The notes beneath the pieces were generated by a model. That model ran no database searches. It had not been told where the DNA came from and saw only the letters and a program-made list of their open reading frames with translations. Below, in pieces: positions 2,186-28,274 of a DNA stretch of 64,000 nt. A program made the position numbers and the translations under genes. How positions within the stretch are numbered: position 1 is the stretch's first letter; the number at the start of each line of letters is the position of its first letter. The stretch covers positions 62,001-126,000 of the forward strand of contig JARHVB010000025.1 of the NCBI GenBank assembly GCA_029222685.1. The letters run 5' to 3'. This DNA is from Terripilifer ovatus (GTDB lineage: Bacteria; Pseudomonadota; Alphaproteobacteria; Rhizobiales; Beijerinckiaceae).

Positions 2186-3463
2186 CTAGCCTTGCGCGGC
2201 CGCGACATCCTTCTCGAAGTTGAATTCCGGCGGATTGGCCGGATCTATGTCGCGCCAGTCGAATCCCTCGGGAAACCGGATCGAGAGCGACCTGATCGCC
2301 CGATAGTCGATCTTCTGGTCTAGTCCGAACGGCAGCTTGCCCTGCTCATGCTCTTCCAGGGCCTTGAGCAACATGCGCCGCGTGCGGACAATGATGGCGT
2401 CGCTGCTGCCGAGGAACTCCTTGCTGCGATCCATGATCGGCCCCATGGATTCCTCGATGATGAAATCCTCGTAGACGAAATTTTTCAGGAGCCCGCTGAA
2501 ATGCCCGTCGGCCATGGCCGCCCGGTCCTGATGCCAGGTGTTGCCGATATCGCCCCGGTCCGCCGCAAAGTCATTATGATCGGGGCCCGCGCCGCGAAGG
2601 GCCTGGTCGATATACCACTGCGGCACAGGCCCGAACGGACTCATGTAGTAATACCAGTGCGCGCTCCGTTCATCGTCGATCGGCGTAACGACAACGACCA
2701 GGCGAGGTTCTCCGTGATTGCCCGGAATGAACGACCAGTAGGGCAGCACCACCTCGCGGATGCGCGCATAGGTCGAACCGTCCTGCATTTTCCGCAGCGC
2801 GGCTTCCCTGAACCCGTAAGGCTGCTCGATGACCTGGAACTGCGGGGCTGAATCGTGAGCGACCATCGAACCGGCGTCGTTCGGCGCCTTCGGCACTGAC
2901 GACGAATGCAGGAAGTTCAGATGCGCGGAATCGAGCTGTCCCTCGAAACCCTGAAGCCAGTTGCCGTGAACGATCGCGCAACGCACGAGCGACGCAGCCG
3001 GCGGATGATGAAACTCGAAATTAAAGAAGTTCGGCGGCTCCTTGCGGGCTCCCATATAGATCCAGATGATGCCGCCGGCTTCGCGCGCGGGGTAGGTCGT
3101 GACGGGAACACGCTCCGCGAAAGCTTCGCGGCGATCCTCCGGCTCCGTCGGCACATCGACGACCTTGCCGTCCGAGTTGAACTTCCAACCATGAAAGATG
3201 CAGCGGAGGCCATCGCCCTCGTTTCGCGCGAGGGCAAGAGAGACACAGCGATGCGGGCAGTGCCGCTGCATGAAGCCGGCCGAACCGTCGGCATTGCGGA
3301 AGGCGACGAGATCCTCCCCCAGCAGCCGGAAGGGCTTCGGCGCGCCACCGGCGACGATGCTGTCGGCGCGGACGGCTGGATGCCAGAATTCGCGCATCAG
3401 CTTCCCCATCGGGGTGCCGGGGCCGACGCGCGTGAGTTTTTCGTTGTCCTGAACCGAAAGCAT
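2186..3463 (-). CDS. Rieske non-heme iron oxygenase, alpha subunit (phthalate dioxygenase/demethylase type)
   Basis: A 425-residue terminal oxygenase of the phthalate 4,5-dioxygenase/O-demethylase type. The Rieske [2Fe-2S] ligands are visible as C69-x-H71 and C88-x2-H91. The mononuclear iron site is D178-SA-H181-LNFL-H186. The N-terminus (MLSVQDNE.LTRVGPGTPMG) is characteristic of this group. Such enzymes use electrons from a separate reductase to hydroxylate or demethylate aromatic acids or amines; no reductase or ferredoxin gene is adjacent. It sits between a marR gene upstream and a solute receptor downstream, all on the minus strand, and probably forms an operon with the receptor. The substrate cannot be deduced. 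Confidence 0.9.
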   Translation of the reverse strand: MLSVQDNEKLTRVGPGTPMGKLMREFWHPAVRADSIVAGGAPKPFRLLGEDLVAFRNADGSAGFMQRHCPHRCVSLALARNEGDGLRCIFHGWKFNSDGKVVDVPTEPEDRREAFAERVPVTTYPAREAGGIIWIYMGARKEPPNFFNFEFHHPPAASLVRCAIVHGNWLQGFEGQLDSAHLNFLHSSSVPKAPNDAGSMVAHDSAPQFQVIEQPYGFREAALRKMQDGSTYARIREVVLPYWSFIPGNHGEPRLVVVVTPIDDERSAHWYYYMSPFGPVPQWYIDQALRGAGPDHNDFAADRGDIGNTWHQDRAAMADGHFSGLLKNFVYEDFIIEESMGPIMDRSKEFLGSSDAIIVRTRRMLLKALEEHEQGKLPFGLDQKIDYRAIRSLSIRFPEGFDWRDIDPANPPEFNFEKDVAAAQG

Positions 3464-22983: not shown

Positions 22984-22994
22984 AGCGTCGCTTG

Positions 22995-23141
22995 TGTCAT
23001 CCCCGACGCCGCGCAGCGGCGAGCGGGGATCCAGACCTGAGGACGCAGTGCTTCGTTGCCTGAACATTGATCCTGGCAACCAGCATCCGGGCAATCGCAA
23101 CACCTGGCTTCCCGCTCGCGCTTCGCGCGTCGGGAATGACA
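22995..23141. repeat. Dispersed palindromic repeat, family R1
   Basis: 147 bp bounded by TGTCATCCCCGACGC and GCGTCGGGAATGACA. The arms are inverted copies and the middle is unrelated sequence. It lies directly behind the amidohydrolase stop. Confidence 0.8.
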
Positions 23142-23224
23142 TTGGCTGCAGCACACCCTCCGGTTAACAGCGCGGTAACCCCGCGCTGCGAAACTCCGCC
23201 ACCAGTTCAACCGGCGGAACCGAT

Positions 23225-24556
23225 ATGCTCAGCACGATTTTCAGCCGCAATCCCGATCTGCGGGAGGCCGTTCGCGGCACGGCGTTTCTGAGCGCGTTCG
23301 CCTTCATCGCCTTCTGGCTGGCCTGGTTCTCGATGGTGCAATGGCGCTCGCCGATCCCGTGGGACGGCAGCGGCATGACCATCGGCAAGGACTTCTTCAA
23401 TTTCTGGATGTACGGACGCGAGGCGTTTTCCGTCGATCCCGGCCGCTTCTACGATCTCGAAACCTATCAGGCCGCGGTCAAACAGATGCTCGGCCCCGAC
23501 AGCGAATATCAGCCGAACTGGTCCTATCCGCCCAGCATCATGCTGCTGGCGCCGCCCTTCGGCGCGCTGCCCTATGTGCCGGCGCTGGTCATCTTCACCC
23601 TTGCCGGCATTGCCGCCTATTTCGCCGTGCTGCTGCGCCGCTTTAGCGCATTTTCAAGCGAAGTGGACACCGGTTCGCGTGAAGAAAATGCGCTCTTTCA
23701 AGAGACTAAACGCGTCTTTCCGATCCAGGGGATCGGAAAACGCTATAGTGACTGGCGGCTTGCAGGCCTCGTGGCGATATCGCCCGCCGCCATCATCTGC
23801 CTCAACTCCGGCCAGTTCGCCTACGCCATCACCGCCCTGCTCGTCGCCATCTTCTGGCAGCTCGACCGGCGGCCGATCCTCGCCGGCGTCCTGATCGGCG
23901 CGCTGTCGCTGAAGCCGCAGCTTGGTCTCTTCCTGCCGGTCATGCTGATCGCGTCGGGACGCTGGCAGACGTTCGCCGTCGCGGCGCTCACCACTCTGGC
24001 GCTGGCGGGGCTTACCACGGTGCTGTACGGCGCGCAGCCCTGGCTCGACTATCTCCACAACGGCATCCCGACGCAAAATCTGGTCCTGCGCGATCCGCTG
24101 ATGCTGGGCGCGAGCGTCATGCCGACGGTTTTCATGAATCTGCGCCAGCTCGGTCTGTCCTATGAAACCGCGATGGCGCTCCAGGCCTGCGCCGCGGTGG
24201 TGGCGGCAGGCGCGATCTTCTGGGCGTTCCGCTTTCGACGCGACGCCGATCCCGATCTGCTGTTCGCCTTCTACTTCGCCTGCTGCGTCTTCGGCCTGCC
24301 CTATCTGCTCAGCTACGACACCATGCCGCTGACCCTCGGCGCCGCCGTGCTGCTGCTGCGCGGCAAACTCGATGCCTGGGGCATGCGCTGGGCGCTGCTG
24401 GTGTGGTGGCTGCCGTTTCTGCAGATGGGCATGGGCATCCTGAAGATTCCGGGCCCCGGCCTTGTCGCCGCGCCGCTGTTCGCCTGGTGGCTGTTCCAGC
24501 GCCTGCGGGACACGGCGCCGCAAGGCGCCGCGTCCGGCATTTTACGGCCTGCCTGA
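23225..24556 (+). CDS. DUF2029 (GT87) family membrane glycosyltransferase-like protein with repeat-derived insert
   Basis: A 443-residue polytopic inner-membrane protein of the GT87/DUF2029 type, which includes polyprenyl-phosphate-mannose-dependent mannosyltransferases. Family features are DFFNFWMYGREAF (acidic loop), QPNWSYPPSIMLLAPPFGALPY and GALSLKPQLGLFLPVMLI, followed by several transmembrane helices. Residues about 141-176 (SAFSSEVDTGSREENALFQE and on) are encoded by a 106-bp dispersed repeat (23645-23750) inserted in frame between two hydrophobic segments. The gene ends with TGA immediately abutting the convergent receptor gene's stop codon. Confidence 0.85.
   Translation: MLSTIFSRNPDLREAVRGTAFLSAFAFIAFWLAWFSMVQWRSPIPWDGSGMTIGKDFFNFWMYGREAFSVDPGRFYDLETYQAAVKQMLGPDSEYQPNWSYPPSIMLLAPPFGALPYVPALVIFTLAGIAAYFAVLLRRFSAFSSEVDTGSREENALFQETKRVFPIQGIGKRYSDWRLAGLVAISPAAIICLNSGQFAYAITALLVAIFWQLDRRPILAGVLIGALSLKPQLGLFLPVMLIASGRWQTFAVAALTTLALAGLTTVLYGAQPWLDYLHNGIPTQNLVLRDPLMLGASVMPTVFMNLRQLGLSYETAMALQACAAVVAAGAIFWAFRFRRDADPDLLFAFYFACCVFGLPYLLSYDTMPLTLGAAVLLLRGKLDAWGMRWALLVWWLPFLQMGMGILKIPGPGLVAAPLFAWWLFQRLRDTAPQGAASGILRPA
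23645..23750. repeat. Repeat family R4, copy inside a coding sequence
   Basis: 106 bp from AGCGCATTTTC to CTATAGTG, about 90% identical to 28014-28118. It contains an 11-bp inverted repeat (AGCGCATTTTC / GAAAATGCGCT) and a second stem CCGATCC-AGG-GGATCGG. This copy has one base more than the other and keeps the host gene's frame open. Confidence 0.9.
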
Positions 24557-26107
24557 TTATTTCCATTCCAGCAAGTTGAACATGAAGCCCTCCGGCTTCT
24601 TCGTACCGCTGACCGGTATCTTCACGTCCTTGCTGTGGGCGATCACCGCGCCCAGCGGCGTCACCGGCATGGAATAGCGCTCAGTGGTCGCCTTGTCGAA
24701 AATGCGTTTGTAGATGGCAACGCGCTTCTCCGGATCGAGCACGGACTGGCCTTCCTGCTGCAGCTTCGACAGTTCCGCGTCCTGGTTGTAGTTGCGGTCA
24801 CCAGCTTCATAGAAGAAGCCCGCCGTCGATTCGACATCCGGATTGCCGCCGCCGTTGTCCCACAGCACCATATAGGCCGGCAGTTGCCCGGCGGCGCGCT
24901 TGGTGACGAAGCCCGGCACCGTCAGCGTCTCGATTGCGGCATTGATGCCAATGCGGCGCAATTGTCCGGCCGTCGCCTCGGCGACGGGACGCGCGGCGCC
25001 CCAGGTTGTGATCGTCATATTGAAACCGTTGGGAAAGCCCGCCTCGGCGAGCAATTGTTTGGCCTTCCCCAGGTCGGTTGCCGGCGGGTCGATCGACGAG
25101 GCACAGCCGATATGCCAGGGATGGCACATCGCCTGCTGCAGCGGCATGTCGGCGATCTCCTTCGGCTGCAGCGCATTCACAAGCGCTTTGCGGTCGATGG
25201 CGCGGAAGATCGCCTCGCGCACCCGGATATCCTTGAACTTGTCGAAGCCTGAGCGGTTCGCCGCGTCCAGCATCAGATAGGTGAAGGAGATGCTGGGCCG
25301 CACCGAAATCTCGATGTTGGGATTGGCTTTCATCAGATCGGCGATGTCACTTGGCACGTCGTACATCAGGTCCTGCTCGCCGATCATCATTTTGGCGAGC
25401 TGCGTCTGCGCGTCGGGGATCGGCGTGAAGACGATCTTGCCGATCTTCGCCGCGCGCTGGCCGGCATTGATCTCCTTGAAGTCGGGGTTCTTGACCAGGA
25501 TGACGCCTTTGGTCGCGTCAACCTGAATGGCCTTGTACGGCCCGGTGCCGACCGGCGCCTTGCCGAAGGCGGACTTGTCGGCAAGCTTGCCGTGCACGTC
25601 AGAAGGATAGATCGGCAGGATCGAGGTGATGCGCGTCATGAAGGGCGCGAAAGGATCCTTCGTCTTCAGCCGCACGGTGAACTTGTCGATCTTCTCGACC
25701 CCGGCGAACTGGCCGAAGCGCGTTTCCTTGAAACGGAACTTGGACGCCGGGTCCATCACGAAGTTGACCGTATAGACTACGTCGTCGGCGTCGAACTCGG
25801 AGCCGTCGTGGAACTTCACGCCCTGGCGCAGCTTGAATTCGATGGTCGTCGGATCGAGGTATTTCCACGATTCCGCCAATCCAGGCACCACTTCGCGCTT
25901 GTCCGAATCGTAGGCCACCAGCGTGTCGAAGACGACGCGGTCCATCAGGTTGGTCTGCGGCTGCGGATCGTAAATCGCGTCGATGATCGAGATCGGCTGA
26001 TAGGCGCCGATGCGCAGCGTGTCCTGTGCCTTCTGAGCAAAAGCCTGCGGCGGCAGCAAGGCTGCTGCTGCGACGACGACTGCTTTCAAGTGATACTTTG
26101 CGTTCAT
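24557..26107 (-). CDS. ABC transporter substrate-binding protein, family 5 (peptide/opine type), copy A
   Basis: A 516-residue periplasmic receptor of the DppA/OppA family. The start at 26107 follows GGAGGGGAAC; the signal peptide is MNAKYHLKAVVVAAAALLPPQAFA. Core features are [38 protein letters not shown] and [17 protein letters not shown]. Two cysteines ([12 protein letters not shown]) occur in the middle, in both this and the next gene. It is about 85% identical to the receptor at 26336 and lies downstream of it on the same strand; no DppBCDF genes are next to either. Ligand unknown. Confidence 0.92.
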   Translation of the reverse strand: MNAKYHLKAVVVAAAALLPPQAFAQKAQDTLRIGAYQPISIIDAIYDPQPQTNLMDRVVFDTLVAYDSDKREVVPGLAESWKYLDPTTIEFKLRQGVKFHDGSEFDADDVVYTVNFVMDPASKFRFKETRFGQFAGVEKIDKFTVRLKTKDPFAPFMTRITSILPIYPSDVHGKLADKSAFGKAPVGTGPYKAIQVDATKGVILVKNPDFKEINAGQRAAKIGKIVFTPIPDAQTQLAKMMIGEQDLMYDVPSDIADLMKANPNIEISVRPSISFTYLMLDAANRSGFDKFKDIRVREAIFRAIDRKALVNALQPKEIADMPLQQAMCHPWHIGCASSIDPPATDLGKAKQLLAEAGFPNGFNMTITTWGAARPVAEATAGQLRRIGINAAIETLTVPGFVTKRAAGQLPAYMVLWDNGGGNPDVESTAGFFYEAGDRNYNQDAELSKLQQEGQSVLDPEKRVAIYKRIFDKATTERYSMPVTPLGAVIAHSKDVKIPVSGTKKPEGFMFNLLEWK

Positions 26108-26335: not shown

Positions 26336-27913
26336 CTATTTCCATTCCAGCAGGTTGAACATGAAGCCTTCCGGCTTCTTGGTGCCGCCGGTGGGAATCT
26401 TCAGGTCCTTGCTATGCGCCAGCACGGCGCCGAGCGGCGTGACGGGCATGGAGTAGCGTTGCGTCGTCGCCCTGTCGAACATGCGGCGATACAGGTCTTC
26501 GCGCTTCTTCGGGTCGAGTTCCGACTGCGCCTTCTCCTGCAGCTCCGACAGTTCCGCGTCCTGGTTGTAGTTGCGGTCGCCAGGCTCATAGAAAAAGCCC
26601 GCCGTCGACTCGACGTCCGGCGCACCGCCGCCGTTGTCCCACAGCACCATATAGGCGGGCAGTTGCCCGGCCGCGCGCTTGGTGACAAAGCCTGGCACCG
26701 TCAGCGTCTCGATTGAAGCGTTGACGCCGATGCGGCGCAATTGGCCTGCCGTCGCCTCGGCCACGGCACGCGCCGGCCCCCAGGTCGTGATCGTCATGTT
26801 GAAGCCGTTCGGGAAGCCTGCCTCGGTGAGCAATTGCTTGGCCTTCGCGATATCCGTCGACGGCGGATCGATCGAGGAGGCGCAGCCGATATGCCAGGGA
26901 TGGCACATCGCCTGCTGCAGCGGCATGTCGGCGATCTCCTTGGGCTGCAGGGCGTTCACCAGCGCCTTGCGGTCGATGGCGCGGAACAGCGCCTCGCGCA
27001 CCCGGATATCCTTGAACTTGTCGAAGCCGGAGCGGTTGGCGGCATCCAGCATCAGATAGGTGAAAGAGATGCTCGGCCGCACCGTGATCTCGATGTTGGG
27101 ATTGCCCTTCATCAGATCGGCGACATCGCTCGGCACGTCGTACATCAGATCCTGTTCGCCGATCATCATCTTGGCGAGTTGCGTCTGCGCATCAGGGATC
27201 GGCATGAACACGATCTTGCCGATCTTCGCTGCCGGCTGTCCGGCATTGATCTCCTTGAAGTCAGGATTCTTGACCAGGATGACGCCCTTGGTGGCGTCGA
27301 CCTGGATGGCCTTATAGGGCCCGGTGCCGATGGGCGCCTTGCCGAAGGCGGATTTGTCGGCGAGCTTGCTGTGATAGTCGGACGGATAGATCGGCAGCAT
27401 CGTCGTCAGCCGCGCCAGCAGCGGCGCAAACGGCGATTTGGTCTTCAGCCGCACCGTGAACTTGTCGATTTTCTCGATGCCTGCGATCTGCCCGAAACGC
27501 TGCTCCTTGAAGCGGAACTTGGACGCCGGATCGGTGACGAAATTGACCGTATAAACCACGTCGTCGGCATCGAATTCGGACCCATCGTGAAACTTGATGC
27601 CCTGGCGCAATTTGAATTCGATCGTGGTCGGATCGATATAGGTCCACGATTCCGCCAGTCCCGGCACCACTTCGCGCTTGTCGGTATCGTATTGCACCAG
27701 CGTGTCGAAGACGACCCGGTCCATCAGGTTGGTCTGCGGCTGCGGATCGAAAATCCCGTCGATGATGGAAATCGGCTGATAGGCCCCCACGCGCAGGGTG
27801 TCCTGCGCCTTCTGCGCATAGGCCGGGGAAGCGAACAGATGAGCGGTCAGACAGGCCGTCAGGCTGACCGTGGCTCCCAGGATTGCAGACTTGAATTTGC
27901 CGTTTCCGCTCAT
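26336..27913 (-). CDS. ABC transporter substrate-binding protein, family 5, copy B
   Basis: A 525-residue paralogue of the receptor at 24557. The start at 27913 follows GGAGAGGG; the signal peptide is [20 protein letters not shown] and on, cut near [12 protein letters not shown]. Nearly all motifs match copy A, including [16 protein letters not shown]. Differences cluster in the signal peptide and in scattered single residues, which points to a fairly recent tandem duplication. It has its own terminator. Permease genes are absent from the window. Confidence 0.92.
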
Positions 27914-28274
27914 GTTTTCCCTCTCCAAAAGCCTGTTTCCAACAACACGCCCCCGGCAATGCGTTTGGATTACGCAACCAGCGGGACACAGGCCTATTTT
28001 GCCGGCGCACGATAGCGCATTTTCAGGCGAAGTGGACACCGGTTCGCATGAAGAAAATGCGCTCATTCAAGAAACTAGACGCTTCTTTCCGATCCACGGA
28101 TCGGAAAACGCTATAGTGCAGGACGGCTTTTCCCGCCAGCGCGGTGCGAAAAACAGCGTGCCTTATTTGCCGTTTCCCCGGCGCGTGCTAAGGGGGCGCC
28201 GAAACCGGACTGCCGATCTGCGTGGGCCGGCTCCGAAATCGCCGTTTTGTCGCCAACCCGAAAGGCCGCGCCTT
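27914..28274. other. Divergent intergenic region receptor B / icd
   Basis: About 360 bp holding the promoters of both genes and repeat R4 (28014-28118). The plus-strand frame that extends icd backwards through here translates the repeat and is not supported as coding. Confidence 0.6.
28014..28118. repeat. Repeat family R4, intergenic copy
   Basis: 105 bp from AGCGCATTTTC to CTATAGTG, colinear with 23645-23750 apart from one missing base in the inner stem (CCGATCC-AC-GGATCGG) and a few substitutions. It lies about 155 bp upstream of icd in the same orientation as the coding copy. Confidence 0.9.

Follow-up and report, generated by a model that had tools for sequence, protein, structure and literature searches.

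A dispersed palindromic repeat lies in frame within a membrane glycosyltransferase gene of Terripilifer ovatus

The same DNA repeat is found both between genes and in frame within a conserved GT87 (DUF2029) membrane glycosyltransferase gene of Terripilifer ovatus (assembly GCA_029222685.1). Analysis of the window, a stretch of 64,000 nucleotides from contig JARHVB010000025.1, and of the genome to which it belongs makes it very probable that the repeat entered the GT87 gene in frame and is read through. The features concerned are listed in Table 1.

Table 1. Coordinates in the window of the GT87 gene, its repeat copy and palindromes, and the intergenic copy R4.
Feature	Position	Strand	Basis
GT87 (DUF2029) membrane glycosyltransferase gene with insert, 443 aa	23225..24556	+	ORF, Pfam PF09594, coding-score gene call
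In-frame repeat copy, 102-bp core (residues 141-174); conserved family 3' end reaches 23748	23645..23746	+	
Palindrome 1, long stem-loop, GAAGTGG..CCGGTTCGC core	23645..23694	+	Consensus structure, pair counts over 30 copies
Palindrome 2, TTTCCGATCC loop GGATCGGAAA	23717..23739	+	Consensus structure, pair counts over 30 copies
R4, intergenic repeat copy, core 101 bp	28014..28114	+	

The intergenic copy, R4, is flanked by a gene for an ABC substrate-binding protein (minus strand) and the gene for NADP isocitrate dehydrogenase (plus strand). Alignment of this copy with the one in the glycosyltransferase gene (28013-28118 and 23644-23750, respectively) gives 107 columns, one gap included, with 92.5% identity (E ~7e-40 in the window), and the reading frame of the gene continues uninterrupted across the repeat, as had been claimed in an earlier note on this DNA, made from the sequence alone. 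Searched with a pattern of the 43-base core, allowing three mismatches at most, the window gave matches at these two places only, and 100 dinucleotide shuffles gave none; no Rfam family reached its gathering score anywhere in the window. The PF09594 (GT87) profile aligns with residues 99-357 of the protein (E 5e-30; 105.4 bits, compared to a gathering cut-off of 25) and its match spans the insert. Hexamer coding scores are high on either side of the insert (0.73 and 0.61). The 34 inserted residues include five K/R and five D/E and, judging from a hydropathy scan, would lie between hydrophobic segments at about residues 105-123 and 189-207.

The surroundings of the gene have features of their own. 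Just upstream, positions 22985-23150 are occupied by a different dispersed repeat (TCATCCCCGACGCC.../CGTCGGGAATGACA), pieces of which recur at several sites of the window and in other segments of the genome examined. On the other side lie two adjacent minus-strand genes for substrate-binding proteins of peptide/nickel-type ABC systems (24557-26107 and 26336-27913). The two are very similar by eye and apparently represent a tandem duplication.

A search of 41 genomes at E 1e-20 and another of 397 genomes at E 1e-25 supplied the homologues of the GT87 protein, all of which were used: a paralogue encoded on contig C81 of this genome (44% identical), together with 11 proteins from 10 other genomes. 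The interval corresponding to residues 131-187, 57 residues long in the query, measures 20-28 residues in each of the 12 homologues; all of them lack the segment, align on both sides of it and carry a short linker of variable length in its place. The claim of an insertion thus withstood the comparison by which the earlier note had proposed to refute it. The paralogue has 23 residues in the interval, that is, 34 fewer than the query, equivalent to 102 bp. The hydrophilic segment described in the earlier note is real, and the 36 residues attributed to it come down to a net addition of about 34 (141-174) relative to the paralogue. When positions 23645-23746 were removed in silico, the frame remained open, with ...AVLLRRF joined to SDWRLAGL... 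at a point where the paralogue reads ...VARGDLHDWKLVA.... No orthologue close enough for an exact empty-site comparison was among the homologues found, the nearest being 44% identical. Outside the insert, the query agrees with every one of the 24 columns invariant across the 12 homologues; of the 37 columns conserved in at least 11 of them, it keeps 36.

These data bear on two alternatives to insertion. It is barely conceivable that the gene had the segment from the start and that the homologues lost it, seeing that all 12 are without it and that the same DNA exists at tens of other, mostly intergenic sites. It is also extremely improbable that the repeat led the assembler to join unrelated sequence. 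The assembly is admittedly a draft in 86 contigs and some copies of the repeat are near contig ends; however, the flanks are the two halves of one GT87 gene in a single frame and both match the paralogue, an outcome that a chance misjoin would not produce.

The distribution of the repeat was analyzed in the draft genome (7.2 Mb, 99.4% complete), with all copy numbers to be taken as lower bounds. Blast detected at least 42 matches (40 of 147 first-look candidates were scored). The core pattern, again with up to three mismatches, gave 91 matches, compared to none for a reversed control, and a profile search of the regions around the matches yielded 104 copies scoring at least 38 bits. Divided at 54 bits, these comprise 44 copies of type A (the R4 type), of which 38 are full length, and 60 of type B, with some partial copies in either class. 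Most B-type copies have palindrome 1 in common with type A, a different second palindrome, and ends reading CTAGAGC...GCTCTAG, which are more complementary to each other than the imperfectly matching A-type ends, AGCGCATTTTC and GAAAACGCT(AT).

In the genome-wide count that the earlier note had called for, a single copy out of the 104 examined, the GT87 copy, is located within a gene and flanked by coding sequence at either end; a relaxed test also returned one, and the figure could be an undercount because the automatic both-flanks test overlooks copies close to the end of a gene or embedded in stacks of other repeats. Overlaps with the edge of a gene number 33 (10 of type A and 23 of type B), mostly by one or two bases. 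A role of the A-type repeat as a regulatory element near gene starts was considered and found no support: its gene-pair contexts (27 unidirectional, 12 divergent, 2 convergent and 2 contig ends) are similar to those of the background gaps (85, 45 and 11, respectively), which are the 141 gaps measuring 100 bases or more within the genome segments examined. Type B is found between convergent genes in 36 of the 53 cases in which both neighbours were called, compared to 11 of the 141 background gaps. More than 20 B-type copies start exactly at a stop codon, to which they provide the TAG, and copies of this type can be near-identical across about 99 bp, as in L112 (contig C41) and L098 (contig C11). 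Finally, contig C2 harbors, at positions 453193-453325, three palindrome-2 units in tandem with no adjoining palindrome-1 match. This row suggests a mosaic build of the element, from hairpins that disperse independently.

In the 30 best copies, which align well with one another, the core measures 102 bp (13 copies), 101 bp (7), 99 bp (3), 104 bp (3), 100 bp (2) or 103 bp (2); 102 bp is also the commonest length in the set of 38 full-length copies (14 of them). The earlier note had argued that one extra base in the coding copy keeps the frame open. The lengths just given show this argument to be backwards: the coding copy has the normal length and it is R4, with 101 bp, that is one base short. 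The conserved right end of the repeat may reach two bases past the 102-bp core and the exact length of the inserted DNA is therefore not fixed. The stems are paired in 95.0% of cells in 30 copies from this genome. Shuffling gives a mean of 4.2 cells changed on both sides and slid controls give 3 to 12, compared to 15 in the real structure. By another measure, pairs with a change on both sides, the real structure scores 6 and the slid controls 2 to 10, with one of them exceeding it.

The insertion in the GT87 gene is recent in family terms. This copy departs from the consensus by three substitutions and no insertion or deletion, which makes it joint least diverged of the 38, and its core residues are those of the translated consensus except for R to K and W to G changes in the second half. 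The family consensus is open in the frame used by the GT87 gene. Counted in register, 20 of the 38 copies are open in this frame and 28 in the next plus frame. As these frames are open in many copies, an in-gene insertion would often stay open by chance, length permitting. We propose that a non-autonomous dispersed element, 102-104 bp long with two stem-loops and at least 38 full-length copies in the genome, inserted into the GT87 gene; the gene would have stayed open because the core amounts to 102 bp (34 codons) and its consensus is open in that register. The element would then be translated as a polar loop between the two hydrophobic segments. Once insertion and read-through are granted, the insert is probably tolerated rather than selected, considering its consensus-like sequence and the scarcity of in-gene copies.

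Tolerance is the point disputed by a rival explanation which accepts the insertion, and whose odds overlap with those of the reading just given. The insertion might have inactivated the protein, the frame being open only from youth in what would be an incipient pseudogene. We consider this rather unlikely. With the GT87 copy among the least diverged of the 38 there was perhaps little time for decay, the paralogue could cover the function, and the finding of just one in-gene copy in 104 suggests that such copies are usually removed. Yet, all 443 codons are intact, coding scores are high after the insert, the Pfam match extends across it and none of the 24 invariant columns is altered. An open frame and kept columns would, for their part, likewise be expected soon after inactivation. 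A further possibility, that the insert has been co-opted, perhaps serving the enzyme as a regulatory or binding loop, appears very improbable. Nothing speaks for it beyond the presence of the insert in one genome, since the dnaE2-type and oppD-like cases found in relatives (see below) concern unrelated proteins; the near identity of the core residues with the translated consensus gives no sign of refinement at the protein level, and the insert is kept by none of the homologues.

Insertion of a dispersed element, which we favor, implies that the element is or was mobile. Near-identical copies dispersed in the genome point in this direction. Scanning of 37 A-type copies revealed no target-site duplication, TA or longer, above the level of shuffled flanks (best z 2.4 among several hundred length/offset combinations). 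A search for the REP-associated Y1_Tnp transposase (PF01797) gave no matches in this 99.4% complete genome, and was positive in 5 of 14 control genomes. Mobilisation of the element by a RAYT was therefore rejected. With no A-type target duplication and no Y1_Tnp, the transposase type searched, the transposition step is unproven.

Related copies extend well beyond this genome. Matches to the encoded peptide were found in 77 of 397 genomes of the bacterial family (the present one included), distributed over 16 of 43 genera, in agreement with the remark of the earlier note that such motifs are common in the intergenic DNA of Rhizobiales. Weak peptide matches (E 0.01 to 0.5) were obtained with five plasmid records, four from Bradyrhizobium and one from Xanthobacter, none with a listed gene at that place; R4 DNA matched one Methylobacterium plasmid over half the length of R4. 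Of the matching sites in relatives that have long open frames, 20 were examined, and inspection placed two of these in genes. The first, in genome G357, is a dnaE2-type frame of 1279 codons which matches PRK05672 above the cut-off and holds an in-frame 102-bp relative of the element. Coding scores in this frame are positive on both sides over its whole length, and not in the 300 bases immediately upstream; a sister copy of the element, 99% identical, is present within the same genome. The element belongs to an inverted-repeat-rich stretch of some 110-120 residues, all in frame, at about 2750-3130 of this locus (L205, G357:C32:26686-32754), which we read as a putative stack of repeats. The second case, an OppD-like ATPase in genome G408, is less sure than the dnaE2-type one and its assignment is uncertain. 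The PRK09473 profile, scoring below its cut-off, matches up to position 304 of 318 and is followed by the element, near the end of the gene, and by a short HAAACWH tail, which we take to be the normal OppD ending; the 66 bases after the element score negative for coding (-0.24).

None of the other 18 sites had positive coding scores on both sides, with the upstream portion too short to score at three of them. Eighteen further regions, 15 from a search with another frame and three from the peptide search, contained none that passed the automatic both-flanks test. This test passed none of 97 copies in 90 loci from relatives, and it missed the dnaE2-type and oppD-like cases too. It is possible, even if we are inclined to doubt it, that, throughout the bacterial family, the repeat superfamily recurrently supplies a single frame (SAFSSEVDTGSREENA...) to proteins unrelated to one another. 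The idea derives from three cases, the glycosyltransferase, the DnaE2-type polymerase and the OppD-like ATPase, all found by searches with that very frame. The one other frame searched provided no case in 15 candidates, the test applied being one that had likewise failed to detect the polymerase and ATPase cases, and the proportion of copies open in the other plus frame (28 of 38 versus 20 of 38) does not favor a preferred frame. If the idea were true, the commonest 34-codon core and its open frame would make the repeat a recurrent donor of protein loops.

Altogether, the GT87 gene offers a clean and seemingly recent instance of a dispersed palindromic repeat turned protein-coding, in a 7.2 Mb genome where a paralogue serves as the unoccupied reference. 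That such insertions can survive is simply explained by a 34-codon core with an open frame. On the practical side, annotators should be aware that recurring SAFSSEVDTGSREENA peptides, or recurring peptides of a second, 15-residue kind, can be repeat-derived in this group.

The element was not found in print by text searches, core strings included, whose coverage stopped short of figures and most subscription papers. A possible named relative, on our assumption, is RIME1, reportedly a mosaic intergenic element of rhizobia, about 106 bp long and made of two palindromes. RIME1 (Osteras 1995) is cited as a Rhizobium-specific intergenic mosaic element in PMC2573895 and PMC1273637. PMC5082802 describes Br-REP1 and Br-REP2 as dispersed palindromes of Bradyrhizobium and its kin, the latter within a larger repeat; compared by eye, the consensus printed there is unlike the present element. 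More generally, REPs are presented in PMC3733652 as sequences of 20-40 bp with a single stem-loop, which in the CGTC type has a stem of 8-9 bp, a loop of 4-5 bases and mostly a CCA tail, with other loop lengths also seen in the CGTC-1 REPs of Bradyrhizobium. Like the GTAG/CGTC-tagged REPs, our element is a dispersed palindrome; unlike CGTC-tagged REPs, it is a two-stem unit of 102-104 bp. Its palindrome 2 follows CGTC and starts with T-A pairs; the stem there measures 10 bp, the loop is of 3 bases in most copies, and a CCA tail is missing. According to PMC3733652, REP families occur in Bradyrhizobium and Rhodopseudomonas, and REPs lie wholly within ORFs in several species, including in genes for DnaE2 polymerases.

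The element also resembles Correia/NEMIS, ERIC, YPAL, the QMITE of Coxiella and RUP, several of which are similar in size and yield stem-loop transcripts; PMC2229807, PMC5896051 and PMC10969869 report in-frame fusions for several of the first four and none for RUP. Open frames of MITEs fused in genes are on record for Neisseria, enterobacteria, Yersinia and Rickettsia (PMC2229807), and further cases appear in PMC10969869 and PMC5896051. Most such MITEs have terminal inverted repeats and target duplications, as tabulated in PMC2229807, whereas the A-type repeat has only an imperfect match between its ends (AGCGCATTTTC / GAAAACGCT) and no detectable target duplication. The RPEs are described, in PMC2229807 and PMC10969869, as stem-loop-forming repeats of 105-150 bp, dispersed both between genes and in frame within unrelated conserved genes, and an RPE-bearing guanylate kinase is reported to be translated and active with a changed substrate affinity (PMC2229807). 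By description, the present element is like the RPEs as a kind, being a dispersed stem-loop repeat found between genes and in frame in a conserved gene; it differs in that in-gene copies are rare here (one of the 104 examined), while RPEs are often in genes. The earlier note's likening of the in-frame glycosyltransferase copy to the in-gene elements of Rickettsia is thus supported. The novelty implied by its occurrence in another lineage is weak, cases outside Rickettsia being already in print in PMC3733652, PMC2229807, PMC10969869 and PMC5896051. Translated in-gene palindromic repeats are indeed already known as a kind, because in-gene translated MITEs, REPs and RPEs have been documented in Rickettsia, Neisseria, enterobacteria, Coxiella and others, and the GT87 gene adds one more case outside Rickettsia.
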